A stretch of 32,227 nucleotides of DNA from Desulfobulbaceae bacterium (GTDB lineage Bacteria; Desulfobacterota; Desulfobulbia; Desulfobulbales; Desulfobulbaceae). A model generated the notes under the pieces. The model ran no database searches and was not told the origin of the DNA. It was given only the letters and a program-made list of their open reading frames with translations. Shown in pieces: positions 301-15,995 of the stretch; positions within the stretch are counted from its first letter, which is position 1, and each line of letters opens with the position of its first letter. Where the stretch lies: NCBI GenBank assembly GCA_019163135.1, contig JAFLKR010000035.1, positions 1 to 32,227 of the forward strand, in the 5' to 3' direction. A program made the position numbers and the translations under genes.

Positions 301-1149
301 ATGGAACGCGGCGGAAGGCCTGCTGCAGATGAACAATTTCTCGTCCCCTTAAAGAAACGGCTGATTATCCTTATGCGCTATGCCATCTCTCTTGCTCCAC
401 CCACAGCCTCTCCCCTCTGGCAACGGGGCAGCCAGTGGCTCGGTCGGGATGCCTGCAACGGACAATACCTGCCCCCGCCCCGTTTTCGTGGGATTGACCC
501 GGAGCGTTTTGCAGAGCTCACCCGCACCCCGGCTCACCATGGCTTTCATGCCACCATCGTCCCGCCTTTCCGCCTAGCGGAACGGGTCAGCGAAGCCGAC
601 TTGTTGCAAGATCTTGACAATTTTGCTGCCCGCCAACGACCGTTATCTCTGGCTCCCCTCGAAATCGCTCTGCTCAGTAACTTTTTTTGCCTGCGGCCCG
701 CAGGTCATTGCCCAGTTCTCCAGACGCTCGCGGCCCTCGGCATCCGTGCCTTCGAGCGCTTCCGTGCACCCTTGACCCCCGGAGAACTCGCCCGGGGCAA
801 GGCCGTCATGCTCAGCGGTCAGGAAAAGAGGAATCTGGAGATTTGGGGGTACCCCTATGTCTTTGAGGAATTCCGCTTTCATTTCACCCTGACGACGCGC
901 ATGCCCGAGGGTCGTGAAATGGATTTGCTGCACAACGCGCTGCTTGAGACCTTCACCCCACTGCTCTCCGATCCGCTGCTGATCGATGATATTTGCCTTT
1001 TCATGGAAGCGGATGCCGGTAAGCCGATGCGTTGCCTGTACCGCTTTCCCTTTCCCCCAATTTCTTCCGAACCCGAGGAACGCACCCATCATGCCCCGCA
1101 GCTCCTCCAAAAAAACATTCATCCTGGATACCAATGTCATTCTGCATGA
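301..1149 (+). CDS. DUF1045 family protein (2H phosphoesterase-like)
   Basis: The 282-residue product resembles DUF1045 proteins, which in other bacteria often lie in phosphonate-utilisation clusters and belong to the 2H phosphoesterase superfamily. Two H-x-T motifs expected of that fold are visible, HAT (HGFHATI) in the first half and HFT (FHFTLTT) in the second, so a 2',3'-cyclic phosphodiesterase-type activity is plausible; the substrate is unknown. The start at 301 is supported by AGGAG at 291-295. The family-like sequence (MRYAISLAPP) begins only at codon 25 (373), so a start there is possible. The last 59 bases overlap the PhoH gene and the tail looks unlike the family. No C-P lyase genes are visible in the window. 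Confidence 0.75.
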   Translation: MERGGRPAADEQFLVPLKKRLIILMRYAISLAPPTASPLWQRGSQWLGRDACNGQYLPPPRFRGIDPERFAELTRTPAHHGFHATIVPPFRLAERVSEADLLQDLDNFAARQRPLSLAPLEIALLSNFFCLRPAGHCPVLQTLAALGIRAFERFRAPLTPGELARGKAVMLSGQEKRNLEIWGYPYVFEEFRFHFTLTTRMPEGREMDLLHNALLETFTPLLSDPLLIDDICLFMEADAGKPMRCLYRFPFPPISSEPEERTHHAPQLLQKNIHPGYQCHSA

Positions 1150-2428
1150 TTCGTCTTGCATTACCCATTTTCAGGAGCACGACGTCGTCGTTCCCATCAC
1201 CGTTCTTGAGGAACTGGACCAGTTTAAAAAAGGCAATCTCACCCTGAATTATCATGCCCGTGAATTCGTGCGCGCTCTCGATGGGTTGAGCGCTGGCAAA
1301 TTGTTCAACGGCGGGGTGCGGATCGGCGTGGGCAAAGGGCGGGTGTCGGTCAAACTGGAACAGGCGCCCCACGAGGATCTGCGGCAGCATTTCCCGGCAG
1401 CGGGCAAGCCCGATCACCAAATCCTCAATATCGGCTATCACCTGGCCAAAGCGGACGGTTCGCGCAAATACATCCTGGTGACCAAAGATGTCAACCTGCG
1501 GATGAAGGCCAAGGCGGTCGGTCTGATGGCTGAGGATTACACCACCGATCATGTCAAGGATATCGGCTCTCTCTATACCGGTTGCCGCTATCTGGATGGG
1601 GTTGCACCCGAGTTGATCGAGACCCTGCATCGCGAGGAGCAGGGGAGCGATTCCGGACCGTTGCAGCTTGATCCGCCCCCGGTGGCCAACGAATACCTGA
1701 TTGTGCGCAATTGTAAAAAATCGGTGCTCGCTACCTTCCGGCCAGGTGATGCCAAAGTCTGCAAGATTCACCGCAAGAGTGTGTACGGCATCACGCCCCG
1801 CAACGCCGAACAGAGTTTCGCGATCCATGCCCTTTGCAACCCGCAGGTCCCGCTGGTTACTATTTCGGGCAAGGCAGGCACCGGTAAAACGCTGCTGGCC
1901 CTGGCGGCGGCGTTGGAACAGCGTGCCCAGTATCGCCAGATTATGCTAGCCCGACCGATCGTGCCGCTGTCCAACAAGGATATCGGCTACCTGCCCGGCG
2001 ACATCCAGTCGAAAATCAGCCCGTACATGCAGCCTCTCTACGACAACTTGGCGGTGATTCGCAGCCAGTTTCCCGAGCAGAGCGAGATGAGCCTGTTGAT
2101 CGGCCGTCTGCTGGACGACAAGAAATTGGTTATCGAGCCCCTGGCCTATATCCGGGGCCGCAGCCTGGTGAAAATGTACATGATCGTTGACGAGGCCCAG
2201 AATCTCACCCCGCACGAGGTCAAGACCATCATCACCCGGGCCGGCGAGCAGACCAAGATTATCTTCACCGGCGACATTCACCAGATTGACCATCCCTATC
2301 TCGATAGTCATTCCAATGGGTTAAGTCATCTCATCGAAAAGATGCGGGGACAGCCGATTTACGCGCATATCAATTTAGAAAAAGGCGAGCGTTCCGAACT
2401 CGCCATGCTGGCCAGTGAACTGCTATGA
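1091..2428 (+). CDS. PhoH family protein with N-terminal PIN domain
   Basis: The product is 445 residues. An N-terminal PIN nuclease-like domain starts with FILDTNVILHD around residues 10-20, including the first acidic metal ligand D13. A PhoH-type P-loop ATPase follows, with Walker A GKAGTGKT at 260-267 and Walker B MIVDEAQN at about 364-371. This PIN-PhoH (PhoH2/YlaK) architecture is linked in other organisms to RNA unwinding and cleavage, so a cytoplasmic RNA-processing role is likely. The start at 1091 was chosen over upstream in-frame starts because the PIN domain begins there and GAGGA lies at about 1074-1078. Its 5' end overlaps the DUF1045 gene and its stop overlaps the next start in an ATGA, so all three are probably co-transcribed. 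Confidence 0.9.
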   Translation: MPRSSSKKTFILDTNVILHDSSCITHFQEHDVVVPITVLEELDQFKKGNLTLNYHAREFVRALDGLSAGKLFNGGVRIGVGKGRVSVKLEQAPHEDLRQHFPAAGKPDHQILNIGYHLAKADGSRKYILVTKDVNLRMKAKAVGLMAEDYTTDHVKDIGSLYTGCRYLDGVAPELIETLHREEQGSDSGPLQLDPPPVANEYLIVRNCKKSVLATFRPGDAKVCKIHRKSVYGITPRNAEQSFAIHALCNPQVPLVTISGKAGTGKTLLALAAALEQRAQYRQIMLARPIVPLSNKDIGYLPGDIQSKISPYMQPLYDNLAVIRSQFPEQSEMSLLIGRLLDDKKLVIEPLAYIRGRSLVKMYMIVDEAQNLTPHEVKTIITRAGEQTKIIFTGDIHQIDHPYLDSHSNGLSHLIEKMRGQPIYAHINLEKGERSELAMLASELL

Positions 2429-3105
2429 AATCAAACCTGCCCGATCATTCCCTGGTGCGAGCCATCCTGCCCTTTGGTCTGCTTATGCTGCTGCTGGCAG
2501 CGGCCAGCCCGGCGTCCCAGATCTTGCGTTACCGCGAGCAGACCGGTGAGAGCAGTTTCACCTTTCTCTGGCGCTCGGAGCAGGATCGATCCGGGGTCAC
2601 CATTATCCAAGATCAGGGGGACGAAACCTACAGCAGTGTTTGTACCCCGGAGGGCACGACCCTTTCCTGGCGTTACCTCCGTCCGCCGGATACCGATGTC
2701 CGGGCAGAACGGATTGGGGACCGTATCCAGCTGAGCGGCCGACTGGCCGGCAAGGCGATTAACCAAAGCCGGACCATCGATAGTCGGCCCTGGTTCCAGC
2801 CGCTGTCCTTCTCGTTGCAGCGGATGGTGGCCCGTAATGCGCAAACCGCCACGTTCTGGACTATCCGTCCGGACACCCTCGAAATTATCGCTATGCAGGC
2901 GCAGCAATCAGGCCGTGAGCAACTGCCTGCGGGTGAAGCCAGCCAAGCAGCGGATAAGGTGGTGATCCGTCTGGATGGTCTGTTGTCCGGGGTTTGGCAT
3001 GCCGATTATTGGTTCCGGCAAAGCGATAACCTCTTTGTCGCGTACCGGGGGACCCATGGCCCGCCGGGGACAGCGGAGACCTCCATCCGTCTGCTTACCC
3101 CTTAA
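2425..3105 (+). CDS. Secreted or membrane-anchored protein of unknown function
   Basis: I do not recognise this 226-residue protein. Residues about 12-32 form a hydrophobic segment ending in AAASPASQ, which looks like a signal peptide, so it is probably exported. The rest is rich in alternating polar and aromatic residues (FTFLWR, WHADYWFR), suggesting beta structure of the type seen in periplasmic DUF3108-like proteins; that comparison is weak. The start overlaps the PhoH stop by four bases (ATGA at 2425-2428), implying translational coupling. It ends 18 bases before the stop of the convergent glycosyltransferase gene. Confidence 0.7.
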   Translation: MKSNLPDHSLVRAILPFGLLMLLLAAASPASQILRYREQTGESSFTFLWRSEQDRSGVTIIQDQGDETYSSVCTPEGTTLSWRYLRPPDTDVRAERIGDRIQLSGRLAGKAINQSRTIDSRPWFQPLSFSLQRMVARNAQTATFWTIRPDTLEIIAMQAQQSGREQLPAGEASQAADKVVIRLDGLLSGVWHADYWFRQSDNLFVAYRGTHGPPGTAETSIRLLTP

Positions 3106-3123: not shown

Positions 3124-4119
3124 TCAGCAATTGACCGCCAGGTTGTCGAGGAACTGGCGGGTGCAGACTTCCCAGGAATAACCGGCGGCAAAGTCACGGC
3201 AGCCGCTCCGTGGCACGGTCATGGCTCGCAGAGCGGCAGTGCGGAGATTGGTGTCGAGGCAGCCGTTGATGCCTTCGCGGACGATATATTTCGGCCCGGT
3301 CACCGGAAAGGCAGCCACCGGTACGCCGCTGGCCATGGCCTCAAGCAGGACAATGCCGAAGGTGTCGGTCAGGCTGGGAAAAACAAAGACATCCGCCTGC
3401 GCCAGATGGACGGCCAGATCCTCTCCGCCTTTGGCACCGGTGAAATAGACCTCCGGATAGTCGCGGCGCAGAGTTTTCAGGGCCGGCCCGTCGCCGATCA
3501 CCCATTTTTTCCCCGGTAGTTCCAGATCAAGAAAGGCGGGCAGGTTTTTTTCCATGGCCACGCGGCCGACATAGATAAAAAGCGGATGGGGAACGGCCGA
3601 TTGCGAAGGACGCCGAGGTCGGAACAGGGTGGTGTCCACCCCCCGCGACCAGGGCACCAGATGGGTGAAATCCTTGGCCGCCAGCTCATCAATAATGGTC
3701 GGCGCCGCCATGGTTCGGCGGGCTGGCCGATGAAAGCCCCGGATCAGGGCATAGCTCATGGCCAGCGGCACGGGGGCGCGCATGCGGACATATTCGGGAA
3801 AGCGGGTGTGGTACGAGGTGGTAAAGGCGAGATCCAGTTTCCGGCAAGCGGCCCGGGCTGTCCAGCCCAAAGGACCTTCGGTGGCGATATGAATCGCCGC
3901 AGGTCCAAACCCCGTGAGCATCCGGCCGATGCTTGCCGGAGTGACCATGGAAAGCCGGATCTCGGGATAGGTGGGACAGGGAAAGGTTTCGAATCGATCC
4001 GGGGTGATCATCATCACCTCATGCCCCCAAGCTTGCAAGGTCGCAGCGGTCCGACTCAGGGTCGTGACGACGCCGTTAATTTGGGGATGCCAGGCATCGG
4101 TTGCGATACAGATCTTCAT
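3124..4119 (-). CDS. GT4-family glycosyltransferase
   Basis: A 331-residue retaining glycosyltransferase of the GT-B fold. The N-terminus MKICIATDAWHPQINGVV is the typical first strand and glycine loop of GT4 enzymes acting on lipids (mannosyltransferases, SqdX-like enzymes). The C-terminal donor-binding half carries YVGRVAMEKN and DTFGIVLLEAMASG, the usual E/D-x7-E region. It most likely transfers a sugar from a nucleotide donor to a membrane lipid at the cytoplasmic face; donor and acceptor are unknown. The ATG at 4119 was chosen because the domain begins there; an upstream in-frame extension lies wholly inside the neighbouring gene. The 5' end overlaps the LpxH-like gene by 44 bases, so the two are almost certainly expressed together. 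Confidence 0.88.
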   Translation of the reverse strand: MKICIATDAWHPQINGVVTTLSRTAATLQAWGHEVMMITPDRFETFPCPTYPEIRLSMVTPASIGRMLTGFGPAAIHIATEGPLGWTARAACRKLDLAFTTSYHTRFPEYVRMRAPVPLAMSYALIRGFHRPARRTMAAPTIIDELAAKDFTHLVPWSRGVDTTLFRPRRPSQSAVPHPLFIYVGRVAMEKNLPAFLDLELPGKKWVIGDGPALKTLRRDYPEVYFTGAKGGEDLAVHLAQADVFVFPSLTDTFGIVLLEAMASGVPVAAFPVTGPKYIVREGINGCLDTNLRTAALRAMTVPRSGCRDFAAGYSWEVCTRQFLDNLAVNC

Positions 4120-4891
4120 AGGCTTTAACGGCGACCGCCTCCTCCAGGGGATATTGATTGCGCCACTCGACGATGCCGAGTTGGCCGGTGTGGTTTTCGG
4201 CAAGTGCCGTGCAGCTTTCCACCCAGTCACCGGCGTTGGTATAGAGCATGTTTTCGATCTCCCTGATCCCGGCCCGATGGATGTGGCCGCAGATCAGGCC
4301 CTCAACCTGATGTTCGACCGCTTTCCGGACGATCACCTTTTCAAACCGGCCCAGGACGTTAACCGCGATTTTCACCCGATGCTTCATCCAGGCAGAAAAC
4401 GACCACTGCTTCCGGTTGGACTGACGTCGATTAAGGTGCCGGCGGCTGTTGATTTTCAGCAAAATTTCGTAGATCGTACTGCCGATACTGGCCAGCCAGG
4501 GGCAGTGTTGCACGACGGGATCGAAGGTGTCGCCGTGCAGAACCAGGTAGCGGTGGCCGCCGACGGTCTCATGGATCACCTCGTTTTGGATATGGATGTT
4601 GTTGAAGGTGCTGCCGTTGAATTTACGCAGCATATGGTCGTGATTGCCGGGCAGATAGAAGACCTTGGTGCCGTTTTCGGCTTTTTCCAGGATCGTTTTG
4701 ACGATCCGGTCATTGATCTTGGGCCAGTGCCATTTTTTTTGGGCCTGAAGCAGGTCGAAAATATCGCCGACCAGATACAGAAATTCGGATTCGCTCTGCA
4801 GGAGAAAATCGAGCAATTGTTCGTTCTCCAGGTTTTGGGTGCCAAGGTGGAGGTCGGATATCCAGATGGATCGGAAATGAAGTCGCGGCAT
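4076..4891 (-). CDS. LpxH-like metallophosphoesterase (UDP-2,3-diacylglucosamine diphosphatase family)
   Basis: This 271-residue calcineurin-like phosphoesterase has the full dinuclear metal motif set: DLHLG (13-17), GDIFD (42-46), GNHD (82-85), HGD (119-121) and GHIHRA (202-207). The overall pattern matches the UDP-2,3-diacylglucosamine pyrophosphatase group. True LpxH makes lipid X for lipid A, but the pairing with an overlapping GT4 gene leaves open another lipid pyrophosphate or phosphate substrate. The start at 4891 is backed by AAGGAGGG six bases upstream. A decayed second copy of its C-terminal region (about residues 211-240) lies at 15510-15680. Confidence 0.85.
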   Translation of the reverse strand: MPRLHFRSIWISDLHLGTQNLENEQLLDFLLQSESEFLYLVGDIFDLLQAQKKWHWPKINDRIVKTILEKAENGTKVFYLPGNHDHMLRKFNGSTFNNIHIQNEVIHETVGGHRYLVLHGDTFDPVVQHCPWLASIGSTIYEILLKINSRRHLNRRQSNRKQWSFSAWMKHRVKIAVNVLGRFEKVIVRKAVEHQVEGLICGHIHRAGIREIENMLYTNAGDWVESCTALAENHTGQLGIVEWRNQYPLEEAVAVKAYEDLYRNRCLASPN

Positions 4892-5088
4892 GAGTCCCTC
4901 CTTCGGGTGTGCGCCGGTTGCGGGGCAGAAGCAGGCGGTTGTTCAAACGTTTTTCTGCTGCCTTGCCCCAAGCATACCTTCCCCCTGTTATGTCCCGGTC
5001 ATGATCCAATTTTTTTCCGGTTGGCGGATTGTTTTGATTGGATTGGGGCGCTCGTCCTTCAAGGAAAAAGGCTGTATTGGTGGAGCGT
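4892..5088. other. Intergenic gap with imperfect hairpin upstream of the LpxH-like gene
   Basis: This 197-base gap splits the leftward envelope block into two transcription units or hosts an internal promoter. An imperfect inverted repeat lies at 4922-4969: GGGGCA (4922-4927) pairs with TGCCCC (4964-4969), and AGCAG (4930-4934) with CTGCT (4955-4959). On the minus strand it would fold in the leader just upstream of the strong RBS of the LpxH-like gene. No T-run follows, so a classical terminator is unlikely. Confidence 0.35.
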
Positions 5089-6141
5089 TCAGATGCGATC
5101 CTGCCGCACTGTAAACGAGAGAGTGGCCTCGGTGACCATGCTGCGGCCGAAGACGAAGAAGAGGCCAAACCAGAGCAGCTGCAGGCCGAGGAGCAGCATG
5201 GGATTGAGCAGCAGGCGCATCCCGGCGGCGATGGCAGGGAGAGGCAGCGGGGAGGAGGACGGCAACAGGCAGAGCCCGCAACCGTAGACAATCGCCGCCA
5301 GGCTCATTTTTTGATAGGCCGAGATGCTGGTGAATCCCCTGAAATCGGCACGGAGCATTTCCGAGAGTACCCGCCAGATCTGGGAGACCAGCAGGCTGAG
5401 GAGAAAGGCGGTCCGGTAGTGCCCCTGGAAAAATAAATGGCAGGCGAGCAGGGCGGTGGCGGTGTAGAGCAGGCAGGTCAGCCCCTGGACTGGCACCAGC
5501 TTGACCCCGGCAAGTCCCCCCTCGTAGACCGCCTTCTTGGTCGCGCCGGTAAAGACAAAGGCCAGGCGATTGAACAGTCGTGTGGCCAGAGCGCCGCATT
5601 GGTGCAGCGGTTTGCCGTAACAACAGCCGAAACTGATACACGCCAGCCGGCCGAGCCCCTCGCCCAGAATATAGCCGATACCGAGTGCAGCCAGCGTCAC
5701 CTGCATATTAAGGAGCGGAACGTTCAGCAACAGGCAGCCGCCATTGACCAGGAGGATGAGCAATGGCGTGGCCGCCAGTCCGCAGAAAAACGAACCGCCG
5801 ATCGTGAAGGTGTATTGTTTTTTTTCCACTAGTCGGGCCACCAGTCGAGCCGCAGGCAGGCAAAGACCCACGATCAGGGCGAGCAGCAGCACCATCGGCG
5901 CCGGGTCGGTATGGGCGGCAACCGCGAGGATGAGGACGAAGAGGACGGCAATGGTAACCGCAGAGGCGGTCAGCGCCCCGTAGGCGGTGAAGTTGATTCC
6001 CCGCCACTGGGAACCGCTTCTCCTGGCGACCGGCACCGAGGCCAGCACCTGATAGCGTTCACCGGGCAGCAGCCGCCAGCCGAGCACGATCAGCAGGGTG
6101 AAAAGGCCGGCGGCGGTAAGGAGAAAAAACCATTCATTCAT
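5089..6141 (-). CDS. Lgt-like (prolipoprotein diacylglyceryl transferase family) membrane protein
   Basis: A 350-residue polytopic membrane protein with roughly eight to nine hydrophobic segments. The central signature GRLACISFGCCYGKP (residues 164-178) resembles the G-R-x-x-C-x-x-x-G-C-C-Y-G motif of Lgt-family paralogues, which differ from true Lgt. Canonical Lgt moves diacylglycerol from phosphatidylglycerol to a lipoprotein cysteine in the inner membrane; a related lipid-transfer reaction is a reasonable inference here. A cytoplasmic loop of charged residues at about 22-47 and other extra segments distinguish it from housekeeping Lgt. Its start overlaps the stop of the decarboxylase-like gene in an ATGA (6138-6141), indicating coupling. 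Confidence 0.7.
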   Translation of the reverse strand: MNEWFFLLTAAGLFTLLIVLGWRLLPGERYQVLASVPVARRSGSQWRGINFTAYGALTASAVTIAVLFVLILAVAAHTDPAPMVLLLALIVGLCLPAARLVARLVEKKQYTFTIGGSFFCGLAATPLLILLVNGGCLLLNVPLLNMQVTLAALGIGYILGEGLGRLACISFGCCYGKPLHQCGALATRLFNRLAFVFTGATKKAVYEGGLAGVKLVPVQGLTCLLYTATALLACHLFFQGHYRTAFLLSLLVSQIWRVLSEMLRADFRGFTSISAYQKMSLAAIVYGCGLCLLPSSSPLPLPAIAAGMRLLLNPMLLLGLQLLWFGLFFVFGRSMVTEATLSFTVRQDRI

Positions 6142-7199
6142 GGCATCATCCTCCGGAAGGCTTGCGGGATTGTGGGGGCGGGCTGCAGGCTGCCGGCGGC
6201 TAGCCCCGGTCGTTTGATCGCAATGGTTGAGCGGACCTTGACATCGGTTTCCACCAACGGTCGGCCCAGTCCGGAAGAGAACCGGCTCTGCACGTCGCGG
6301 CGGACCACGTTTTTCCGCAGGTCCTCACTGAAAACGATGCTGTCCTTTTCAAAAAGGAGGATGTCGGTGGAACTGCCGGGTCGGTACAGGCTTTTGGGGC
6401 AGCCTTTGGTGAGCCGCATGCCCTTGACCACCGGGACGGGATGGTCGTACTTGGTGTCGGAGTAGCATTGGACGATATCGCCGATCATCAGGGCCACGAC
6501 CTCGATCATCGCCACCAGGCCGATGCCGCTGCCGCCGATCACATCAGTATCGATGATGGTGACCACCCGCCGGTTCTTGGCGTGGAGCGAGGCCAGGGCG
6601 ATCAACGCTTGCGGATTGCAGGAGTGATAGCCGCCCTCGAGTTCATAGATGTCGACCACCTCGCCGCTGACCGGGATATGATTAAAATGGTATTTATCCG
6701 GGGTCAGGCGAAAGATAGCGAAATCGCCCCCCGCAAAAGAGGTGTGCCACGGCGAGTCGCCCAGCAACTCCATGGTCGAGAAAAATTTTTCCTTGATGAA
6801 CAGTTCCGGGGTTTCCTCCAGGGTACCGATCAGGACCTTGGCATCGGCAGGGGCGGCTATGGCTTGCGGGTCTGGATCCATGGGGCGGCAGTCCCAATAA
6901 CGAATCTGCCGTTCAAAGACCTGACGGGCGCTGGTGAAGCTGTGATGCGGGGCCAGGCATTCCCGCCAGTCGACCCCCATTCGTTTGAGCAACGCCAATC
7001 CTTGATCATGGCAAAGCGGGAGATTGAGGTCGAAATGGAGAAATCCCAGCCAACCGGACATCCGTTTGGAGGTCAAGGCCTGAAACAGGCTCGGGGCATG
7101 TTCACGTAAACGGTTATAGAGCAGGGCGATGGTCCGGTCGGCGATGAGCTTCTCGCTGATGATGGCGCCGGTCTCGCGGGCAATATACTGATGTGCCAT
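6138..7199 (-). CDS. Phosphatidylserine decarboxylase-like pyruvoyl enzyme
   Basis: The 353-residue product matches the Psd-related family. Recognisable parts are PADAKV (about 117-122), the histidine loop KYHFNHIPVSG (169-179) and the self-cleavage site RPGSST (273-278), where chain cleavage between G275 and S276 would create the pyruvoyl group. The canonical motif is LGST, so G-S-S is a variant. The alpha chain is long, about 78 residues, and ends in a block with GRPLVETDVKVRS, typical of a Psd-like subgroup rather than housekeeping Psd. The start at 7199 has GGAGA just upstream; a longer in-frame extension would run into the upstream gene. It should decarboxylate phosphatidylserine or a similar amino-acid-headed lipid at the membrane. 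Confidence 0.8.
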   Translation of the reverse strand: MAHQYIARETGAIISEKLIADRTIALLYNRLREHAPSLFQALTSKRMSGWLGFLHFDLNLPLCHDQGLALLKRMGVDWRECLAPHHSFTSARQVFERQIRYWDCRPMDPDPQAIAAPADAKVLIGTLEETPELFIKEKFFSTMELLGDSPWHTSFAGGDFAIFRLTPDKYHFNHIPVSGEVVDIYELEGGYHSCNPQALIALASLHAKNRRVVTIIDTDVIGGSGIGLVAMIEVVALMIGDIVQCYSDTKYDHPVPVVKGMRLTKGCPKSLYRPGSSTDILLFEKDSIVFSEDLRKNVVRRDVQSRFSSGLGRPLVETDVKVRSTIAIKRPGLAAGSLQPAPTIPQAFRRMMP

Positions 7200-7219
7200 A
7201 GGTTTTCTCCAGTTTCGGT

Positions 7220-9583
7220 TTACGCTTCGCCGCTCGCCTGTCTTTCCCCGTGAATGATCAGCAGGGTCAAAAGAATGAGGGCGTGGATTTCTCGGTCCGT
7301 GGCCTCGCCGGCCAAAACCCGGCTGCCGGTTTCTCGAATGAAAAGGGCGGCCGGAGCCTTGCCGGTTATTTGTTGTTGCAGTTCCACCACCTCGCGATCG
7401 CGGCAATGGTCGAGCCGGCAGCCGTCCTGCACCAGGGTTTCCAGGCCATTGGCCAGATGCAGGTTGCAGAGATCCTTGCGGTAATAGGTTTCCACCGCCC
7501 GGTTGAAAGTTTTCGCCTCGACCTGCATCGGATCGATGGCTCGGCCGTGCCGATTGAGAATAGCCCCGGTCAGGCGCTGTGCCGCTGTTGGTAATGCGCC
7601 CTTGAGCATGGCCTCCAAGGTATTGAAAGTTTCGGTCACCCCTTTACTCTCGCCGATCCCGCCGCAGTCCCGCTTCAGCAGGTCGAGGCAGGCCTGCTGA
7701 TAGGCCGCCACCTCGATGCGCAGGTAGCCCTTGTAGCGCCGACTGGGACGCTGCCGCTCCACCAGGGCGACGATGCGCCGCAGTACCTGATTCTTAGTGT
7801 CGGCCCGAATGAAGACCGTGGGAAGGCCGATGGCCGCAGCAAAAAAGATCTGCCGACGTTCGCTCTCGGTGCCGGGATCGTCGGGGATATCGGCATGCTC
7901 GACCTTGCCGTCGATCACCCATTGATAGGCCAGGGCGGTGACGATGGTCTGCAAATCGACCGACAGGGCCAGGGTCTCTCGCAGATCCGGGAAAATCGAA
8001 TAATGGCGCCCTTCGAAACCGGAGAAGCCGTAGGCGGCATGGGCGCGCATCCGGTAGGGCAGATAGATAGCCATGCGGCTGTCGAAAACCCCCATTTCGG
8101 TCAGATCCCGCTTGAGCCGCTCGTGATTGTATTCGACACCGTTGAGCGCCGGGCTCTGTTCGACGCTGTGCAGGGCCACCAGGTAATCGACCAGACGGAC
8201 ATCCGGCAGGTAATCGCCGCGCAGCCGCAGCAGACCACTGGTCAATCGGTCGAGCCAGAGCGGTCCCAGGGGGGTGAAGCTGTGACCGCAGAAACGTAAA
8301 TCCGCTTTTTTCTTCCAGCGCCGCCAGAGCATCCGCAGGTGGGTGTAGTCGAGTTCGTGCGGCAGATAGCCCAACACCTTTTCCGGGTGAAAATCGCTGA
8401 ATCCCAGGCGATGGGGCGCCGCCGAGCAGGTGGTGACAAACAGCGGCAGGAAGTGCTCGACAATCTTGATCACCAAATCACCGAAATATTTTTCGAAACG
8501 TCCGGCGCCCGGTTCACGGTAACAGCGGCTGAGCGTGCGGCTGCCCAGGGTGATGTGGGTGCCGTTGTTGGCCAGCGAGGTGCTGGAGGTATTGGGCAGA
8601 ATCACCAGATTGTTGACGATGATCCCCGCCTCCTTGAGTTTGGCGATGGTGTTGAGTTGGCTGCGGGAGAGCGTCCGATGGCAGAGGCCCATGTACTCTT
8701 TTTTCGCTTCGCCCCGCTGCCATCCGGAGAGGCAGGGGTTGAGGAACAACTCCCGGTAGAACTGGTCGGAAATGAGATCGTTGAGTTGTTTTTGCCGGGC
8801 CGGAGGATTGGGGGCCAGGTACATCCGGCAGGTCTGACCGTGGTGTTCCAGGCGAAACGCCCGGTTGGCGTGCTGGATAAGCAGGTGGAGCAGAAAAAAT
8901 CTGCGGCTGGTCTCACGGGCGGTGTTGCGGCCGGGAAGTTCGTCGGCATCGCCGCTGCTCAGGCTGAAGGAGATCACCTCCGGCGAACAGTTGTCGCTGA
9001 TCAGATGATCCATTAATCGAACCCCGGTTCGGCGCAGGAGCGAGTCGGCGTGGTCGGGCTGGCCGATGGCTTCGGCCAGCGAGAGCTTCAGCAGGTAGCT
9101 GACCGGAACCCGCAACCAGGGCTCCCCCTCTTTGACAAAAAGAAACTGGTCGGCATCTTGACGAACCGGGGCCTGCGGATCTGCTTTATCAGCACGCAGA
9201 TCAAGGGTCAGGATGGAGGCGGCGTACTCTCCCAAAAATTGGCGGGGGAAACGGACCCAGGAATTTTCCCAGATTTGCGCTTGCTGTTCATTGAGAAAGG
9301 CGTCAAGTTCATTGAGCACGTGGGGTGAAAGATCGCCGCGCCGGGCCCGCAGAGCCAGGTTTTTATAGTAACCGGAGTCGAGGATGGTCTGCGCCAGATC
9401 GACATCGTTCTTTTTTCCCTCGACCACCACCTGGAACTCATTCTCCACGCCAACGGTGGTATCGATACCGGAGAACGGTTGGTGCTCCAAACCCTGGAGG
9501 ATCTGCCGCCGGAAATCGCGGGATTGGTCGGCGAGCGTGGGTTCGGAAGGGTTTTGGGTCTTTTGAGGCAGAGGAAGGGTCAT
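7220..9583 (-). CDS. Large protein of unknown function in lipid operon
   Basis: I do not recognise this protein of about 787 residues. It has no signal peptide or evident membrane segments, so it is probably cytoplasmic. Near the N-terminus is TVGVENEFQVVVEG, faintly like the G-V-E-x-E-F start of glutamate-cysteine-ligase-like (GCS2) enzymes, and a later YLRIEVAAY could be a matching strand; this is weak. Other conspicuous segments are NNGTHITLGSRTL and GHSFTPLGPLWLDRL. It lies 20 bases upstream of the decarboxylase-like gene in the same direction and is likely the first gene of that operon. The ATG at 9583 begins MTLPLPQK; an alternative in-frame start at 9646 adds 21 residues. Neither start has a strong RBS. 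Confidence 0.75.
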   Translation of the reverse strand: MTLPLPQKTQNPSEPTLADQSRDFRRQILQGLEHQPFSGIDTTVGVENEFQVVVEGKKNDVDLAQTILDSGYYKNLALRARRGDLSPHVLNELDAFLNEQQAQIWENSWVRFPRQFLGEYAASILTLDLRADKADPQAPVRQDADQFLFVKEGEPWLRVPVSYLLKLSLAEAIGQPDHADSLLRRTGVRLMDHLISDNCSPEVISFSLSSGDADELPGRNTARETSRRFFLLHLLIQHANRAFRLEHHGQTCRMYLAPNPPARQKQLNDLISDQFYRELFLNPCLSGWQRGEAKKEYMGLCHRTLSRSQLNTIAKLKEAGIIVNNLVILPNTSSTSLANNGTHITLGSRTLSRCYREPGAGRFEKYFGDLVIKIVEHFLPLFVTTCSAAPHRLGFSDFHPEKVLGYLPHELDYTHLRMLWRRWKKKADLRFCGHSFTPLGPLWLDRLTSGLLRLRGDYLPDVRLVDYLVALHSVEQSPALNGVEYNHERLKRDLTEMGVFDSRMAIYLPYRMRAHAAYGFSGFEGRHYSIFPDLRETLALSVDLQTIVTALAYQWVIDGKVEHADIPDDPGTESERRQIFFAAAIGLPTVFIRADTKNQVLRRIVALVERQRPSRRYKGYLRIEVAAYQQACLDLLKRDCGGIGESKGVTETFNTLEAMLKGALPTAAQRLTGAILNRHGRAIDPMQVEAKTFNRAVETYYRKDLCNLHLANGLETLVQDGCRLDHCRDREVVELQQQITGKAPAALFIRETGSRVLAGEATDREIHALILLTLLIIHGERQASGEA

Positions 9584-9891
9584 GAACTCACTGTCCGTTG
9601 AAGCTGTGTAGGGGGTCGCTTTCTGAACAGCAACGTACCAAGTCATTGTTACAATCAGGCCATGAATGCGTCACATTTTCATCAGGCCCGACGGGTCCAA
9701 AAAATCATCCTACCGCAATATTAACGGTGCCCTGTCGAGACAGTAATCGCATCCTAACAACCCTCCGGTAATGCTTGGTGCAGACGCGGCTCTCAAGGTG
9801 TTGCAGCCTGGGCGACGTCGTCGGGAGGCTGCTGGAACAGGCGGTCTAGGCCCATGGAACTTTGGGGAATGAACCTTATATGGAGGGAACA
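9584..9891. promoter_or_regulatory. Divergent intergenic region upstream of the alkaline phosphatase
   Basis: About 300 bases lie between the leftward operon and the rightward phosphatase gene and must contain both promoters. A perfect 7-base inverted repeat, GCAGCCT (9803-9809) with AGGCTGC (9826-9832), encloses a GC-rich loop that is itself partly palindromic (CGACGTCG). A smaller inverted repeat, CTGTC-GA-GACAG, lies near 9733-9744. I found no Pho-box-like direct repeat and no riboswitch signature. The RBS GGAGGG precedes the ATG at 9892. Confidence 0.4.
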
Positions 9892-11472
9892 ATGAAAGCA
9901 AAAAGGATGATTTGTCTCGCAACCTTTGCAGCGGTGACCTTTGCGTCAACCGCGGTTTGGGCTGAGACGCCCAAGTACGTCTTCTTCTTTCTGGGAGACG
10001 GTATGTCAAATGCGCAGATTCAGGCTACCGAGGCCTATCTGACCACCAAGAACGGCGGATCAGCCACCCTGGCCACCGATCTGATGAAATCTGAAAATCG
10101 GTTGAATATGAGTAAATTACCGGTTTTGGGGATGCAGACCACCTATGATGCTCATGCCCTGATGACCGATTCCGCCTCTGCGGGCACGGCCTTTGCCAGT
10201 GGCGTCAAAACCATGAGCGGTACTATCGGCATGGATGAAACCAAAACCATCAGCTACAAAAGTGTTGCCGAGCTGGCCGCGGAACAGGGCAAGCGGGTCG
10301 GGATTATTTCCAGCGTTTCTTTGGATCACGCTACCCCGGCGGCATACTACGCCAACGTCCCCAGTCGGAGCGACATGAACACCATTGCCAAACAGATGGC
10401 GGCCTCAGGATACGATTTCTTTGGTGGTGGCGGTCTGGCGGCTCCTGAAGCGAACGCTGTTACAGCTGCGATGCAGGCGGATGGCTACACCATCCTCAAT
10501 GATCGGGAATCCATTCTTGCCCTGAAACAGAACCCCAAAAGCAAGGTGGTGTGCATCAACCCCTATCTGCAGGACGCCGCTGCCATGCCCTATGCCATCG
10601 ATCGTCCGGCTACGAACCTGTCGCTGGCCGAGATGACCGAGGTTGCTATCGACTCGTTGCTCACCAGAAAGAAAGACACCAAAAAAGGAGGATGGGGCCA
10701 CAAGGATGAGGGCTTCTTCCTGATGGTCGAAGGCGGCAAGATCGACTGGGCCTGCCATGCCAACGACGCCATGGCCACCATCGGCGATACCCTGGATTTT
10801 GATGATGCTGTCGGTGTCGCGCTCGAGTTTTATCGGAAATACCCGAACCAGACCCTGATCGTGGTCACCGGCGACCATGAGACCGGCGGCATGACTGTTG
10901 GCCACGCCACCACCGGATACGCTGCCTATTATGACCGACTGCTTGGCCAGACCATGAGTTTCACCGCCTTTGGTCAGAGCGCGGAGTGGCAGGCCATCAA
11001 AAGCAAATATGACCCCCAATCTTATGCCAACACAGACAATAACCTGGCCAGCGACGCTGCCATGCTTGATTTGATGGAAAAGGCTTTTGGCCTCAATTTG
11101 AATGAGGATCCAGTAGCCTGTAAGACGGATAGCAAACTAATATGCTTAAACAGCTTCCAGAAGAAAAAACTCGAGGACGCATTTGACAAATCGATCACGG
11201 GTATTGATAAGAATGACCCGGAAAGCAAACTGCTCTATGGCGGGTATGAGCCCCTCGCGGTCACCATCACCCACCTTCTCAATGAAGTTTCCAGCATCGG
11301 CTGGACTTCCTATTCCCATACCGGCGTGCCGGTGCCGGTTTTTGCCATCGGCCCGGATGCAAAGCGTTTTGCCGGGTTTTACGACAACACCGACATCGCC
11401 AAGCAGATAGCCCGTTCCATGGGCATCTGGCAGCAGTTGCCGATAGAAAAAAAGATGGCAACTGTTAACTGA
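9892..11472 (+). CDS. Periplasmic alkaline phosphatase (PhoA family)
   Basis: A 526-residue alkaline phosphatase. A Sec signal peptide covers residues 1-24, with a cleavage site after A-V-W-A. The mature enzyme shows FFLGDGMSNAQ with metal ligand D36, and MTDSASAGTA with nucleophile S94. A downstream GDHETGG block carries the zinc-binding D and H. It hydrolyses phosphomonoesters in the periplasm and releases phosphate. The start at 9892 follows GGAGGG by a good distance; an earlier in-frame ATG at 9862 would place extra residues before the signal peptide and is rejected. A hairpin after the gene suggests it is transcribed alone. Confidence 0.92.
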   Translation: MKAKRMICLATFAAVTFASTAVWAETPKYVFFFLGDGMSNAQIQATEAYLTTKNGGSATLATDLMKSENRLNMSKLPVLGMQTTYDAHALMTDSASAGTAFASGVKTMSGTIGMDETKTISYKSVAELAAEQGKRVGIISSVSLDHATPAAYYANVPSRSDMNTIAKQMAASGYDFFGGGGLAAPEANAVTAAMQADGYTILNDRESILALKQNPKSKVVCINPYLQDAAAMPYAIDRPATNLSLAEMTEVAIDSLLTRKKDTKKGGWGHKDEGFFLMVEGGKIDWACHANDAMATIGDTLDFDDAVGVALEFYRKYPNQTLIVVTGDHETGGMTVGHATTGYAAYYDRLLGQTMSFTAFGQSAEWQAIKSKYDPQSYANTDNNLASDAAMLDLMEKAFGLNLNEDPVACKTDSKLICLNSFQKKKLEDAFDKSITGIDKNDPESKLLYGGYEPLAVTITHLLNEVSSIGWTSYSHTGVPVPVFAIGPDAKRFAGFYDNTDIAKQIARSMGIWQQLPIEKKMATVN

Positions 11473-11502
11473 GATTTTCATCCTTTTTATCCCATCCGCT
11501 AA

Positions 11503-11537
11503 ACCCATGGTGCTGCCCTTTTGGCAGTGCCATGGGT
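11503..11537 (+). terminator. Hairpin terminator after the alkaline phosphatase gene
   Basis: ACCCATGG (11503-11510) pairs perfectly with CCATGGGT (11530-11537). The inner TGCC/GGCA pairing and CTTTT loop extend the stem. The following sequence is pyrimidine rich (CTTGCCTTTCTCT) rather than a pure T-run, so termination may be incomplete. Confidence 0.6.
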
Positions 11538-11558
11538 CTTGCCTTTCTCTGAGTGCCC

Positions 11559-12671
11559 ATGTACCCCTATCGCCGCGAACTGCTCTTCTCCCTGATTCTT
11601 TTCCTACTCTGCACCGCGTTGTTGTTCCTCGACATTGCCCATGTTCCGCAGGCACCGAGCGGCATCCGCTGCCGTGCCCTGATCACCGCTGTCGATAATT
11701 CGAAGGTGCGGACCAACCTGATCGTCAAAACCAACATCCAGTCCCTGACCGTTCAGCTGCTCTCCGGACCGCACGAGGGCCAGCCTCTCGACGTGGTCAA
11801 CATGCTCACCGGCAAGATGGAACTCGATGAATTCTATGAGGCGGGCACCACCATTCTGGTCGAATACAGCGCCCCGGACGGGAAACCGGTCAATGCCGTC
11901 GCCCGTGGTTCCTACCGATTGGGGTTGATGCTTTTTCTCATGGGTCTTTTTGCCCTCCTGCTGGTCGCGGTCGCCGGGGTTACCGGTCTCAAGGCAGGGC
12001 TTTCCTTTGTTTTTGCCGCCCTGGTGCTGTGGAAGCTCTTTTTTCCACTGCTGCTGTTGGGCTATCCGCCATTGCCCACCGGGCTGGGGATTGTCACCCT
12101 GTTGACCGGCGCCATCTGTTTTTCCGTGGGGGGGCTCACGCGGCGGGGCCTGGCCACCTTCGCCGGTTCGATGCTGGGCATCCTGCTCACCTGCGGTCTG
12201 GCCACGCTCTTTACCCACCTGTTCCGGCTGCACGGCGCGGTTCGGCCCTTTGCCGAAATGCTATTGTATTCGGGCTATTATGATTTGAATCTCACCGATA
12301 TCTTCATTGCCAGCGTCTTCATCGCCTGTTCCGGGGCGGTCATGGATCTGGCCATGGACATTGCCGCCACCATGGATGAAATCAAGTTCCAGCAGCCCGA
12401 CATTGGTCTTTTCGACCACATGCGCTCCGGCTTGCGGGTCGGGCGGGCGGTCACCGGCACTATGACCACCACCCTGCTGCTTGCCTACTCAGGCAGTCAC
12501 ATCACCATGTTCATGGTCTTTCTGGCCAAAGGCCTGCCCCCTGCCAACCTGCTCAATGCCCCCTTCGTCGCCGCCGAGGTGCTCAATATTCTGGTGGGGA
12601 GTTTCGGGGTGATCGTCGTTGCCCCCTGCACGGTGGCCATCGCCGCATTGCTGTATCGTACCAAGGCCTGA
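11559..12671 (+). CDS. YibE/F family membrane protein
   Basis: A 370-residue inner-membrane protein of the YibE/F-like family, whose substrate has not been established. An N-terminal transmembrane segment (about residues 8-27) is followed by a soluble beta-rich domain (roughly 35-115) and then about seven membrane segments. Family-like signatures include LLLVAVAGVTGLKAGLSF and the region around AMDIAATMDEI and GTMTTTLLLAYSG. The ATG at 11559 is used; a GTG two codons upstream at 11553 is equally possible, and no strong RBS is seen. The next membrane-protein gene begins one base after the stop, so they probably form an operon. Confidence 0.87.
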   Translation: MYPYRRELLFSLILFLLCTALLFLDIAHVPQAPSGIRCRALITAVDNSKVRTNLIVKTNIQSLTVQLLSGPHEGQPLDVVNMLTGKMELDEFYEAGTTILVEYSAPDGKPVNAVARGSYRLGLMLFLMGLFALLLVAVAGVTGLKAGLSFVFAALVLWKLFFPLLLLGYPPLPTGLGIVTLLTGAICFSVGGLTRRGLATFAGSMLGILLTCGLATLFTHLFRLHGAVRPFAEMLLYSGYYDLNLTDIFIASVFIACSGAVMDLAMDIAATMDEIKFQQPDIGLFDHMRSGLRVGRAVTGTMTTTLLLAYSGSHITMFMVFLAKGLPPANLLNAPFVAAEVLNILVGSFGVIVVAPCTVAIAALLYRTKA

Positions 12672-12672
12672 C

Positions 12673-14115
12673 ATGAAACGAGAAGTACCGCCCTGCCCAG
12701 AAGCCTTGCATACAGGGGAAAGCCTGTCGGCGATGAATTCGCTCTCCCCAACCAGGACCGTCATCGCCGGGCTGCTCTGTCTGGTGGGCAGTCTGGCCAT
12801 ATTGCTGGCTCCCGCCTTGTGGAATGGATTTGCCCTCGTCTTTTTCGATACCGGCGGGTATGTCGGCCGGGTGCTGGACATGACCCTGGCTCCGGGGCGA
12901 TCGCTCTTCTACGGACTCTTTCTGTGGGCGACTTCGCTGGGTTGGCAGAGCTTTTGGGGGCCGGTGCTGTTGCAATCGCTGGCGACCTTGTGGGTGCTGC
13001 ATCTTGTCTTTCGCTGCCATGACCTGCCAGCCGGACCGCTTGCCATCGCGGCTTTTTGTCTGGGACTGGGCGCCTTAACCGGTATTTCCTGGTACACCAG
13101 CCAGTTGATGCCCGACATCCTGGTGCCTCTGGTGGTGCTGGCGTTCTGGCTCTTGGGGTTTCGTTGGGAGCTGCTGAGCGGGGGGGAACGGATGGGGCTG
13201 GCGGCTGTGGCTCTGTTGGGGATACTGGCGCATATGTCCTGCATGGCCCTGGCCTTGGGATTGGTGGCGGTCACGCTCGTTGCCCGGTTTATTGTGCCCA
13301 GAAGCGGATGGACCCTTTCAGTGTGTTGTTCTGCCCCGACGGCAGTGCTGGTTGCCAGCCTGCTGCTGATGCCGTTGCTGCATCTGGGTCTGGTGGGCAA
13401 GGCGGTTTATACGCCGGGAGGTCCGGTCTTTCTCTTCGGGCGGTTGGTCCAGGACGGCATTGCCCAGCGCTGGCTGGCGGAACATTGCCCCGCACCCGGC
13501 ATCAAGCTCTGTGGGTTGCAGGACCGCATCCCCAAAACCGCCGATGATTTCCTCTGGAGTGATATTTCGCCGTTTCAGGACCTTGGCGCATGGAGCGGGG
13601 CCGCCGATGCCGAATTGGGATATCTGGTGCGAGCCAGCGTCAAGGCCTATCCGGCAGCGGTCGTCTGGACCTCCCTGCGGGCAACCCTCGAGCAGATGGC
13701 CAAGGTGGCAACCGGCGACGGCCTGGATGAATTTCAGGCCGCAGCGCGCGGAGTTTTTACGGTTTTGCTGCCTCGTACGTCCGATGCCTTCAACGCTGCC
13801 CGCCAGCAGCAAAGACAGATCACCCAGCCGTTGTTCGATGCTTTGAACAAGGTGCACATTCCGGTGGCGTACCTATCGGTATTGGGGTTGCTAGTGGCCC
13901 TAGGCTGGGGCCTTCGCACGGGCCAACACGATCTGGCGGGGCTGGCGCTCTTTGTTGTGCTGGCGCTCCTGGGCAATGCCTTTATCTGCGGGGCGCTCTC
14001 CAATCCCCACGACCGCTATCAAAGCCGGTTGATTTGGCTGGCGAGTCTTGTGGTCGGCATGGCAATGATGCGCTGGTGGCAACGTTGGTCCGGGTGGCCA
14101 ACGATGGGTCGATGA
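12673..14115 (+). CDS. Polytopic membrane protein of unknown function
   Basis: This 480-residue protein has around ten hydrophobic segments and no recognised domain. A long hydrophilic loop in the middle (from about GGPVFLFGRLVQDG to RQQQRQITQ) may be periplasmic and contains three cysteines (EHCPAPGIKLCG and a nearby one). Near the C-terminus is HDRYQSRLIWL, a motif I associate with uncharacterised proteobacterial membrane proteins. The start at 12673 lies one base after the preceding stop; the ATG at 12733, 20 codons later with AGGGGAAA upstream, would place the first membrane segment nearer the N-terminus. It is likely co-transcribed with the YibE/F gene. Confidence 0.75.
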   Translation: MKREVPPCPEALHTGESLSAMNSLSPTRTVIAGLLCLVGSLAILLAPALWNGFALVFFDTGGYVGRVLDMTLAPGRSLFYGLFLWATSLGWQSFWGPVLLQSLATLWVLHLVFRCHDLPAGPLAIAAFCLGLGALTGISWYTSQLMPDILVPLVVLAFWLLGFRWELLSGGERMGLAAVALLGILAHMSCMALALGLVAVTLVARFIVPRSGWTLSVCCSAPTAVLVASLLLMPLLHLGLVGKAVYTPGGPVFLFGRLVQDGIAQRWLAEHCPAPGIKLCGLQDRIPKTADDFLWSDISPFQDLGAWSGAADAELGYLVRASVKAYPAAVVWTSLRATLEQMAKVATGDGLDEFQAAARGVFTVLLPRTSDAFNAARQQQRQITQPLFDALNKVHIPVAYLSVLGLLVALGWGLRTGQHDLAGLALFVVLALLGNAFICGALSNPHDRYQSRLIWLASLVVGMAMMRWWQRWSGWPTMGR

Positions 14116-14169
14116 ATACCGGCGTAAAGGGTAGTTACTGCGGGTTTCGGTGGGTTGGCAACCTGCCCC

Positions 14170-15405
14170 TTATTTGTCTTGGTTAAACAAACGGAGATCA
14201 AGCGATGCTGCCATTGCGGCATACCCGGCATCGTTTGGATGCAAATGATCGCCGCTATCAAAGGCGGGTAGGAAACGATCGGGGTGAGTTGGGTCGCGAA
14301 TCACTCGATCAAAATCTACGACCGCGTCGAAGGTGCTGCCGGTACGAATCCACGCATTGACGATTTGGCGTTTTGCTTCGGCCTCTTCCATGTGCGCTGA
14401 TTGCATGGGACTTTTAAACGGAAGCAAGGTGGCGCCCCAAATTTTCAGGTCCTTTTCATGGGCCTGCCCGATCAGCACTTGGATGCCGTCGATAATTTGT
14501 TGGGCCGAAACGTGACCTTTGGGCGTTGCCAGCAGGCCCGCGGCACTGATGTCGTTTATCCCTGCCATGAACAGAATCCAGCGTACCCCGGGTTTGCTCA
14601 GGGCATCGCGATCAAAGCGCGATAGCACGCTCGGACCCATGAATGGCTGCCCGGCTCCATCATTGAGAATGCGATTGCCGCTGATGCCGGCATTGACGAC
14701 AGCGATCGACGCAAGTTCCGGATCGCTTTGGAGTCGTGCGGCGAGCGCATCCGGCCAACGCCTGTTAGCGTCTGCCGTTGAACCCACCCCGTCGGTAATA
14801 GAATCGCCGACCATAACAATGGCACGAGCGTCTGCGCCGGAAAGCACCTCCACATCGGTCAAGAAAAAGCGATTTTTGACAGTTTCGCCAGCGGGAAATA
14901 TCTTTGCCGCGGTGGCATCACCGATCCGTGTAATGTACGCAGTCTGGAGTGCTATGCCATGTATGGTTGAAGGCCCTGTGTGCGTGGGCAGATACAAACT
15001 CACCGCCAACTCTTGCAGCGCTGTGACCTCCATTTTGACGGGATCACTCAAGGCACTGTCACCCTTGGCAATGGTGACGGCCGACTTGCCACCGAACGTC
15101 AGCGCACGATCACTGCCCGGTGCAATGGCTGCGTCGTCGTCATGCAAGGCTACATGCACGGGTCCTATGATTACCGGTGCAGTGCCCAACAAATTGGAGA
15201 GGCGGATACGCAGGCTAGAACCGCCGAGGCTGGTTCGTATGATCTGGCGGACCGTCTGTGTCTGCAGCGGCGGACCTGCGGAATCCGGAACTGCTGCCCA
15301 GGACGCAACCCATTGATCGTCCGCTGCTGACTGGGCGGGCATCGCCGCGGCAAGCAAGCAGAGGAGTAAGCCGAAGACTGCGTGTATCGACCTTGAATGA
15401 AACAT
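14170..15405 (-). CDS. Secreted SGNH/GDSL-family hydrolase
   Basis: A 411-residue exported esterase. Residues 1-27 are a signal peptide with cleavage near A-Q-S-A. The N-terminal beta domain begins QWVASWAAVPDS, common in two-domain SGNH hydrolases. The catalytic domain has all blocks: GDSITDG (200-206, nucleophile S202), NAGISGNR (238-245), GIND (282-285) and DHLH (386-389) supplying the catalytic Asp and His. Carbohydrate or lipid ester hydrolysis in the periplasm is expected; the substrate is unknown. The RBS at 15405 is weak. It converges on the membrane-protein gene and lies next to a decayed gene remnant, so a local rearrangement or transfer is possible. Confidence 0.9.
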   Translation of the reverse strand: MFHSRSIHAVFGLLLCLLAAAMPAQSAADDQWVASWAAVPDSAGPPLQTQTVRQIIRTSLGGSSLRIRLSNLLGTAPVIIGPVHVALHDDDAAIAPGSDRALTFGGKSAVTIAKGDSALSDPVKMEVTALQELAVSLYLPTHTGPSTIHGIALQTAYITRIGDATAAKIFPAGETVKNRFFLTDVEVLSGADARAIVMVGDSITDGVGSTADANRRWPDALAARLQSDPELASIAVVNAGISGNRILNDGAGQPFMGPSVLSRFDRDALSKPGVRWILFMAGINDISAAGLLATPKGHVSAQQIIDGIQVLIGQAHEKDLKIWGATLLPFKSPMQSAHMEEAEAKRQIVNAWIRTGSTFDAVVDFDRVIRDPTHPDRFLPAFDSGDHLHPNDAGYAAMAASLDLRLFNQDK

Positions 15406-15490
15406 AATTTGGCAGCCTGACGAAAAATAAAAATCTTATCTGGCCAAGGATGGAAAGATGTGAAAAATGGAAAAGTAATGATTTGCTGGG

Positions 15491-15532
15491 GCAGCGTTGA
15501 CTGACTTTTTTAGTGTCTGTTCGCAACGCTGC
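15491..15532. repeat. Inverted repeat (possible terminator) downstream of the LpxH-like remnant
   Basis: GCAGCGTTG (15491-15499) is perfectly complementary to CAACGCTGC (15524-15532) across a 24-base loop that includes ACT/AGT pairing around a run of T. On the minus strand it would end transcripts coming from minCDE. No long U-tract follows on that strand, so its terminator role is uncertain. Confidence 0.45.
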
Positions 15533-15680: not shown

Positions 15681-15733
15681 TGACTCCTTGTTGAATAGAG
15701 TAGAGCGCGGCAGCGCTTTCGATGGATTTCTGA

Positions 15734-15994: not shown

Positions 15995-15995
15995 A

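Follow-up and report, generated by a model that had tools for sequence, protein, structure and literature searches.

A window of 32,227 nucleotides from a Desulfobulbaceae bacterium (contig JAFLKR010000035.1 of assembly GCA_019163135.1) carries five genes running in one direction at positions 3124-9583, and raises the question of whether these genes serve a single lipid pathway, as a sequence-only reading had proposed. The five genes are two separable modules: a core trio, which encodes a 787-residue protein termed U787, a Psd-like pyruvoyl decarboxylase and an Lgt-like membrane protein, and an appended PlcP-GT4 pair. We propose, at a little short of an even chance, that the trio constitutes one pathway making an amino-headed glycerolipid from phosphatidylglycerol, probably when phosphate is scarce.

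Co-conservation of the core trio

Analysis of the open reading frames (ORFs) confirmed the five same-strand genes and the spacing described for them by the sequence-only reading. The gene of U787 (7220-9583, minus strand, with an alternative open ATG at 9646) is followed after a 20-base gap by the psd-like gene (6138-7199, minus strand; PF02666 in Pfam, 5e-35), which overlaps the lgt-like gene (5089-6141, minus strand; PF01790 in Pfam, 1e-8) by four bases. A gap of 197 bases separates this trio from the gene of a PlcP-type phosphoesterase (4076-4891, minus strand; Metallophos in Pfam, 4e-10), the 3' end of which overlaps by 44 bases with the gene of a GT4 glycosyltransferase (3124-4119, minus strand; GT4 Pfam domains) that starts at the ATG at 4119 or at an alternative open GTG at 4230.

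The search for U787 covered 297 genomes drawn from the phylum and gave 32 matches, of which 31 were counted; the remaining one, in G014 (73 residues, E 3e-4), was marginal and scored as absent. In all 31 U787-bearing genomes the U787, psd-like and lgt-like genes occur in the same order and on the same strand. The genes of U787 and the Lgt-like protein share one contig and one strand in each of them, with the psd-like gene lying between the two in all 30 fetched stretches as well as in the window. Conversely, the Lgt-like family was found in 32 genomes of the same draw, namely these 31 and G118, in which the lgt-like gene lies without U787 beside its psd-like gene where a 12.8-kb contig ends. 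So constant an order of the three trio genes goes far beyond what chance would give.

A further scan of genome contigs for U787 gave 65 loci from genomes that partly overlap with the 297-genome draw, with the labels Desulfobulbus, Desulfosarcina, Nitrospira, SAR324, Lentisphaeria, Kiritimatiellae, Deferribacteraceae and others; these labels are those of the records themselves, many of them metagenome bins. Among 95 loci, 89 contain a psd-like gene and 78 an lgt-like gene. Of the six without a Psd-like match, five stop at a contig edge inside or just past U787, and L003 (G057) is a short stretch, a longer version of which does carry the psd-like gene. The 17 loci without an Lgt-like match comprise these six, ten stretches that end too early, and L076, which is weighed below. 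Each of the ten early-ending stretches ends within, soon past or, in L008 (G202), ahead of the distant lgt-like gene. Among 40 loci compared, the commonest spacing between U787 and the psd-like gene is a four-base overlap. Moreover, the pairwise distances of the three proteins correlate with r of 0.83-0.89, a value reached in 0 of 999 permutations, a correlation that would arise from shared descent alone.

In G057 (L111) and G202 (L116), the trio is interrupted and the distance from U787 to the lgt-like gene is 3.6 kb and 6.0 kb, compared to the usual ~1.1 kb. Five of the sampled genomes from the window's own genus (G014, G052, G117, G171 and G281) are without the trio; its distribution is therefore patchy even among close relatives. 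No fourth gene of at least 80 codons is common to the trio loci, and a search for a small Pup-like peptide partner among ORFs of 25-79 codons within 1.5 kb found none shared by more than 6 of 74 loci. A defence or phage origin was considered and rejected, the trio proteins having no PADLOC or PHROG match at E 0.01. U787 has no match in the plasmid collection.

Predicted folds and active sites of the three proteins

U787 has no match in Pfam at E up to 1 and none in NCBIfam, and among 51 U787 homologues any one Pfam family is matched by a single sequence at most. A profile of the family found four chance matches only, near E 1, among PDB sequences. The AlphaFold2 model of U787, built with the 51 homologues, has a mean predicted local distance difference test (pLDDT) score of 89 and a predicted template modelling score of 0.92. 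Structural similarity search of this model using Foldseek gave glutathione synthetase/glutamate-cysteine ligase and Pup ligase as the five best PDB rows, with modest E-values of 0.006-0.08. Structural comparison by VIA-align gave Z-scores of 17.1 for GshAB, 16.9 for E. coli GshA and 16.4 for YbdK, followed by ~14 for the best Dop/PafA rows and 8.3 for glutamine synthetase, with the first unrelated row at 4.1.

Four sequence blocks of U787, GxExE (E47, E49), DNxSPE (D197, E202), NNGTH (H343) and FEGR (E524, R526), follow the same order as LERE, TDFAEALLE, SGVHYNF and IEVRS in GshA, the residues of which we take to have the metal/ATP roles that would match these blocks. E47 and E49 are present in 50 of 51 sequences, and D197, E202, H343, E524 and R526 in 51 of 51. 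In the predicted model the putative ExE, D/E, H and ExR metal/ATP residues sit on strands. On the grounds of the fold scores, the motif order and the absence of any family match, we class U787 as a new family by sequence, having a predicted GCS/YbdK/PafA (glutamine-synthetase-like) carboxylate-amine ligase fold, which by activity would be an ATP-dependent carboxylate-amine ligase. Such a fold suits the earlier suggestion that the unknown protein supplies a head group, the lipid nature of the product being a further step of the proposal.

The Psd-like protein reaches at best 130 bits against the NCBIfam equivalog cut-off of 371, and the best match of its profile is E. coli phosphatidylserine decarboxylase (PSD), with weaker matches to tryptophan decarboxylases. 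The catalytic histidines H144 and H147 and the pyruvoyl serine of E. coli PSD served as reference sites (PMC7952604). The equivalents of the two histidines, H171 and H174, are present in 44 of 44 sequences, and that of S166 in most (39/44). In the PGSST motif, Ser277 is present in 44/44 and Ser276, which aligns to E. coli S254, in 43/44. At the position of Y137, which contacts phosphate in E. coli PSD (PMC7952604), all 44 sequences have an arginine (Arg164). Alignment of the 16 of 30 fetched Psd loci that passed the search, eight of the trio and eight others, revealed Phe at this position in the eight non-trio Psds; because these have Phe there, loss of the Tyr alone says little, and it is the Arg that appears particular to the trio proteins in the aligned sample. 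A second Psd is encoded elsewhere in the genome of the window, and a Psd outside the trio was likewise found in 20 of 20 other trio genomes tested (of 30); the Psd-like protein is thus an extra paralogue found with U787.

These residues bear upon an alternative in which the trio modifies a phospholipid: the Psd-like enzyme would make an amine-headed phospholipid, U787 would ligate an amino acid carboxylate to it, and the Lgt-like enzyme would supply or move diacylglycerol, the phosphorus staying in the product. Both PSD catalytic histidines and mostly S166 are kept, and the predicted ligase fold of U787 suits the joining of a carboxylate to a lipid amine. However, the neighbourhood leans to phosphate scarcity, under which a phosphorus-containing product would be costly, and the phosphate contact of PSD is replaced by Arg throughout the family, a weak point given the Phe of ordinary Psds. 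We consider this alternative unlikely, though worth keeping in view.

The AlphaFold2 model of the Lgt-like protein (pLDDT 93) superimposes onto E. coli Lgt (PDB 5azb) with a Z-score of 13.4 and a root-mean-square deviation of 4.0 over 235 aligned residues, the next row having a Z-score of 6.8. Residues R143 and R239-E243-R246 of Lgt are essential or highly conserved (PMC4728403), and their counterparts, R165 and R257-E261-R264, are present in 46 of 46 Lgt-like sequences. By contrast, H103, which is essential in Lgt (PMC4728403) and whose suggested role there is activation of the peptide cysteine (PMC4728403, PMC8689077), is replaced by V, L, C, I, T, F, A or S and is His in 0 of 46; the HGGL motif is lost as well, and the positions of N146 and E151 are Cys in all 46. 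Since the arginine and glutamate residues are kept and H103 is never His, the handling of the donor seems to be retained and the acceptor to differ, so that the predicted structure would be that of a diacylglyceryl transferase with a different acceptor. A second and far stronger Lgt match lies elsewhere in the genome of the window, and an ordinary Lgt was found in 20 of 20 other trio genomes tested; in G228 only the ordinary Lgt passes the family threshold, and the trio member was detected by alignment. The Lgt-like protein, too, is an extra paralogue.

Several observations weigh against a lipid pathway run by these three proteins. Since profile comparison of U787 and GshA finds no similarity, it is the fold and the order of the motifs that carry the active-site match. 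In the Lgt-like protein H103, which is the proposed base of Lgt, is missing without an identified replacement. The matches to tryptophan decarboxylases suggest that the substrate of the Psd-like enzyme may be soluble. Furthermore, L076, a Desulfuromonas record, encodes U787 and the Psd-like protein (6814-16710) with no lgt-like gene within 8.5 kb downstream, an absence that is real in a 16.7-kb stretch without N; the trio is therefore not unbreakable. The last two count against the lipid route and fit a second alternative, in which the product of the trio would be soluble or bound to protein, such as a decarboxylated gamma-glutamyl peptide, and the Lgt-like enzyme would attach lipid to an unusual peptide or protein, leaving the bulk membrane lipid as it is. 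The fold common to U787 and the protein ligase PafA points the same way, as does the fact that Lgt proper acts on peptides. Against it stand the loss of H103 and HGGL, the proposed peptide site, and the lack of any fourth gene or recurring small ORF at the loci; the latter counts against a Pup-like protein target in particular. This alternative seems to us improbable overall, to about the same degree as modification of a phospholipid.

The PlcP-GT4 pair and the phosphate-type neighbourhood

The sequence-only reading took the phosphoesterase to be LpxH-like, an identity we reject. It shares 26% identity with E. coli LpxH and scores 57.7 bits against the TIGR01854 cut-off of 190, and the genome contains LpxI. 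Its identity is instead 44% over 238 residues to an S. meliloti protein, the gene of which adjoins genes for an acyl-homoserine-lactone synthase and a LuxR-type regulator; from these neighbours we take this homologue to be SMc00171. SMc00171 is named as a phospholipase C of the Pho regulon (PMC3596328). By sequence the phosphoesterase is thus classed as PlcP-type, that is, the phospholipase C of phosphate starvation. The GT4 protein, 28% identical to a glycosyltransferase adjoining a Thiodictyon PlcP, is a candidate Agt (glycosyl-diacylglycerol synthase), as judged from its GT4 domains and the plcP-agt gene order. This order is described as a phosphate-starvation arrangement (PMC4796936, PMC8528852), a glycosyltransferase gene being the commonest plcP neighbour in isolates (PMC4796936), and under phosphate limitation Desulfovibrio alaskensis is without glycolipids when agt is mutated (PMC5193443).

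Co-location across relatives, set beforehand as the test of the whole block, gave a divided answer: the trio is not scattered in any of the 31 genomes, whereas the five genes do not travel together. Besides the window, only L032, L033 and L034 (named Desulfobulbus) and G088 have the plcP-GT4 pair next to the trio. At E 1e-40, PlcP was found in 7 of 297 genomes and in 2 of the 31 trio genomes (the window's and G088), and it occurs without the trio in G117 and G171, both of the window's own genus. A GT4 gene (48% identity) lies near the trio without plcP in G280 (L115). The five genes are therefore two modules, of which the PlcP-GT4 pair is an already described arrangement. That all five would form one pathway, as first proposed, is favoured by their single strand and short gaps, by the position of plcP and GT4 after the trio in L032, L033, L034 and G088, and by the GT4 gene in G280; the 29 of 31 trio genomes without PlcP, together with the two relatives that have PlcP and no trio, make it very unlikely.

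Two plcP remnants were observed. The window contains a decayed C-terminal part of a second plcP (15481-15762, minus strand; E 5e-12, with 35% identity over 96 residues), flanked by a GDSL-lipase-like gene and the min genes, both named by eye. In L069 from Desulfopila aestuarii, an N-terminal remnant of 30 residues (9699-9788, plus strand; 60%) lies ~130 bases upstream of U787, which suggests that plcP once stood ahead of the trio in that species.

The block of the window has phoA on one side, and a phosphonate-type gene with DUF1045 and a gene with a PhoH domain on the other. The alkaline phosphatase gene phoA (9892-11472, plus strand; PF00245, 5e-71) diverges from U787 across an intergenic region (9584-9891) that is a putative control region, and it is divergent beside U787 in L031 as well. 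On the other side of the block lie the genes of a putative phosphonate-metabolism protein with DUF1045 (376-1149, plus strand; PF06299, 3e-50; TIGR03223 at 234 bits, slightly under the cut-off of 249), a PhoH2-like PIN-PhoH protein (1091-2428, plus strand; PF02562 and PF13638; NCBIfam PhoH2 at 272 bits, the cut-off of 680 not being reached), which L032 and L034 also have close to the block, and a 226-residue protein (2425-3105, plus strand) without a match in Pfam or NCBIfam. Relatives of the latter adjoin the plcP-GT4 pair in L032 (D. elongatus, 60%) and G088/L110 (38%). At another locus, L057, PstS, PstC, PstB, PhoU and PhnW, each over its NCBIfam cut-off, are encoded near the trio, in addition to PhoB-like and PhoR-like proteins below theirs.

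Counted across loci, a phosphate-type gene is present in 11 of 30 trio stretches (551,550 bases) compared to 0 of 38 controls (605,821 bases; Fisher 3.6e-5), the controls being stretches of the same genomes, mostly contig starts and some of them short, the queries having been picked from loci already seen, and the locus sets partly overlapping. The 11 include the block's own plcP (L110), one PhoH-only locus and two weak PstS matches; a strict count without these four gave 7/30 versus 0/38 (p 0.002). Upstream of U787, an E. coli-type Pho box was found in 12 of 81 regions, against 1.9 expected from shuffles. In a second count, with near-duplicates removed, real control genes and scores out of 14, the box at score 11 was present in 7/72 regions versus 6/350 controls (p 0.002), with no excess at score 10 (16/72 versus 50/350, p 0.11) or 12 (1/72 versus 0/350, p 0.17). 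Direct repeats of seven identical bases at a spacing of 11, as in the Pho box, occur in 8/72 upstream regions versus 6/350 controls, which is the largest repeat excess among spacings 8-22. These results would be consistent with control of the trio by phosphate. The nature of the controls, queries and locus sets tells against it, as do the missing excess at scores 10 and 12, the 19 of 30 trio stretches without a phosphate-type gene, and the window's own region upstream of U787 (9584-9891), in which no E. coli-type Pho box was found.

Elsewhere, the window contains no Rfam family and no tRNA, and its promoter and terminator scans were at chance level. The frame of a formate dehydrogenase catalytic subunit, named by eye (22782-25844, minus strand), runs through one TGA that is likely a selenocysteine at residue 195; iron-sulfur, cytochrome and FdhE-like genes come after it.

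The proposed pathway and known lipid systems

The co-conservation, the predicted ligase-type and Lgt folds, the kept and lost catalytic residues, the extra paralogues and the phosphate-type neighbours are observed features, and a lipid head-group pathway would be the simplest reading that uses every one kept and lost. The substrates, the order of the steps, the lipid product and its control by phosphate would be as follows. U787 would activate a carboxylate with ATP, by analogy the gamma-carboxyl of glutamate, and join it to an amine, giving an amide-linked head group. The Psd-like enzyme would remove the alpha-carboxyl from the head-group amino acid to leave a free amine, and the Lgt-like enzyme would transfer the diacylglyceryl unit from phosphatidylglycerol to this head group, with glycerol phosphate set free. 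The product would be free of phosphorus and the phosphate salvaged. Genomes of the Desulfobulbus type would add the PlcP-GT4 pair, in which PlcP would cut a phospholipid to diacylglycerol and GT4 would glycosylate this diacylglycerol. Because Lgt chemistry releases glycerol phosphate, the route of the trio would spare phosphate without PlcP, which fits its independence from plcP.

It is possible, although doubtful, that the trio makes a new class of phosphorus-free glycerolipid, with an amide head built by a new family of ATP-dependent ligases and diacylglycerol taken straight from phosphatidylglycerol by an acceptor-changed relative of Lgt, as a PlcP-independent phosphate-sparing route in several phyla, mostly anaerobic or nitrifying. 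If so, a role would be assigned to an unannotated 787-residue protein found in about one tenth of the sampled genomes of the phylum, and three genes could be linked to an unknown lipid of nitrifying bacteria and of bacteria in sediment and groundwater. Lgt-type chemistry would extend beyond lipoprotein synthesis, and the glutamate-cysteine-ligase fold to lipid head groups. An extra route of lipid replacement under phosphate stress in sulfate reducers becomes directly testable.

To the extent of the tests made, the ligase family and the grouping of the three enzymes are both new; the superfamilies to which the enzymes belong are known. We found no paper joining U787-, Psd- and Lgt-type enzymes in the open-licence PubMed Central literature. 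U787 shares with the GCS/YbdK/Dop-PafA superfamily the predicted fold (Z ~12-17) and the order of the putative metal/ATP motifs, but differs from it in having no detectable sequence similarity, a length of 787 residues, large insertions and no Pfam family, and in occurring together with psd-like and lgt-like genes. Similarly, the Psd-like protein has PF02666, the catalytic histidines and the cleavage-motif serine in common with phosphatidylserine decarboxylase, but an Arg at the Y137 position and PGSST in place of LGST. The Lgt-like protein retains the predicted fold and the R143 and R239-E243-R246 positions of prolipoprotein diacylglyceryl transferase, but is without H103, has Cys at N146 and E151, and is ~60 residues longer than E. 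coli Lgt.

At the level of pathways, PlcP-Agt remodelling resembles the window in its PlcP homologue followed by GT4 in one direction, with phosphate-type genes near; the excerpted descriptions of it (PMC4796936, PMC8528852) mention no U787-Psd-Lgt trio. The proposed product would resemble the ornithine, glycine, glutamine and betaine lipids (OlsBA/OlsF, GlsB, GluB and BtaAB), which are likewise phosphorus-free and amino-headed, and some of which are associated with phosphate stress. Betaine lipids are built by S-adenosylmethionine-dependent enzymes. Ornithine, glycine and glutamine lipids, unlike the proposed product of the trio, are built by N-acyltransferases (PMC11631085), and the excerpts of this 2024 aminolipid review mention no route combining a ligase, a decarboxylase and an Lgt-type enzyme, such as the one we propose here.

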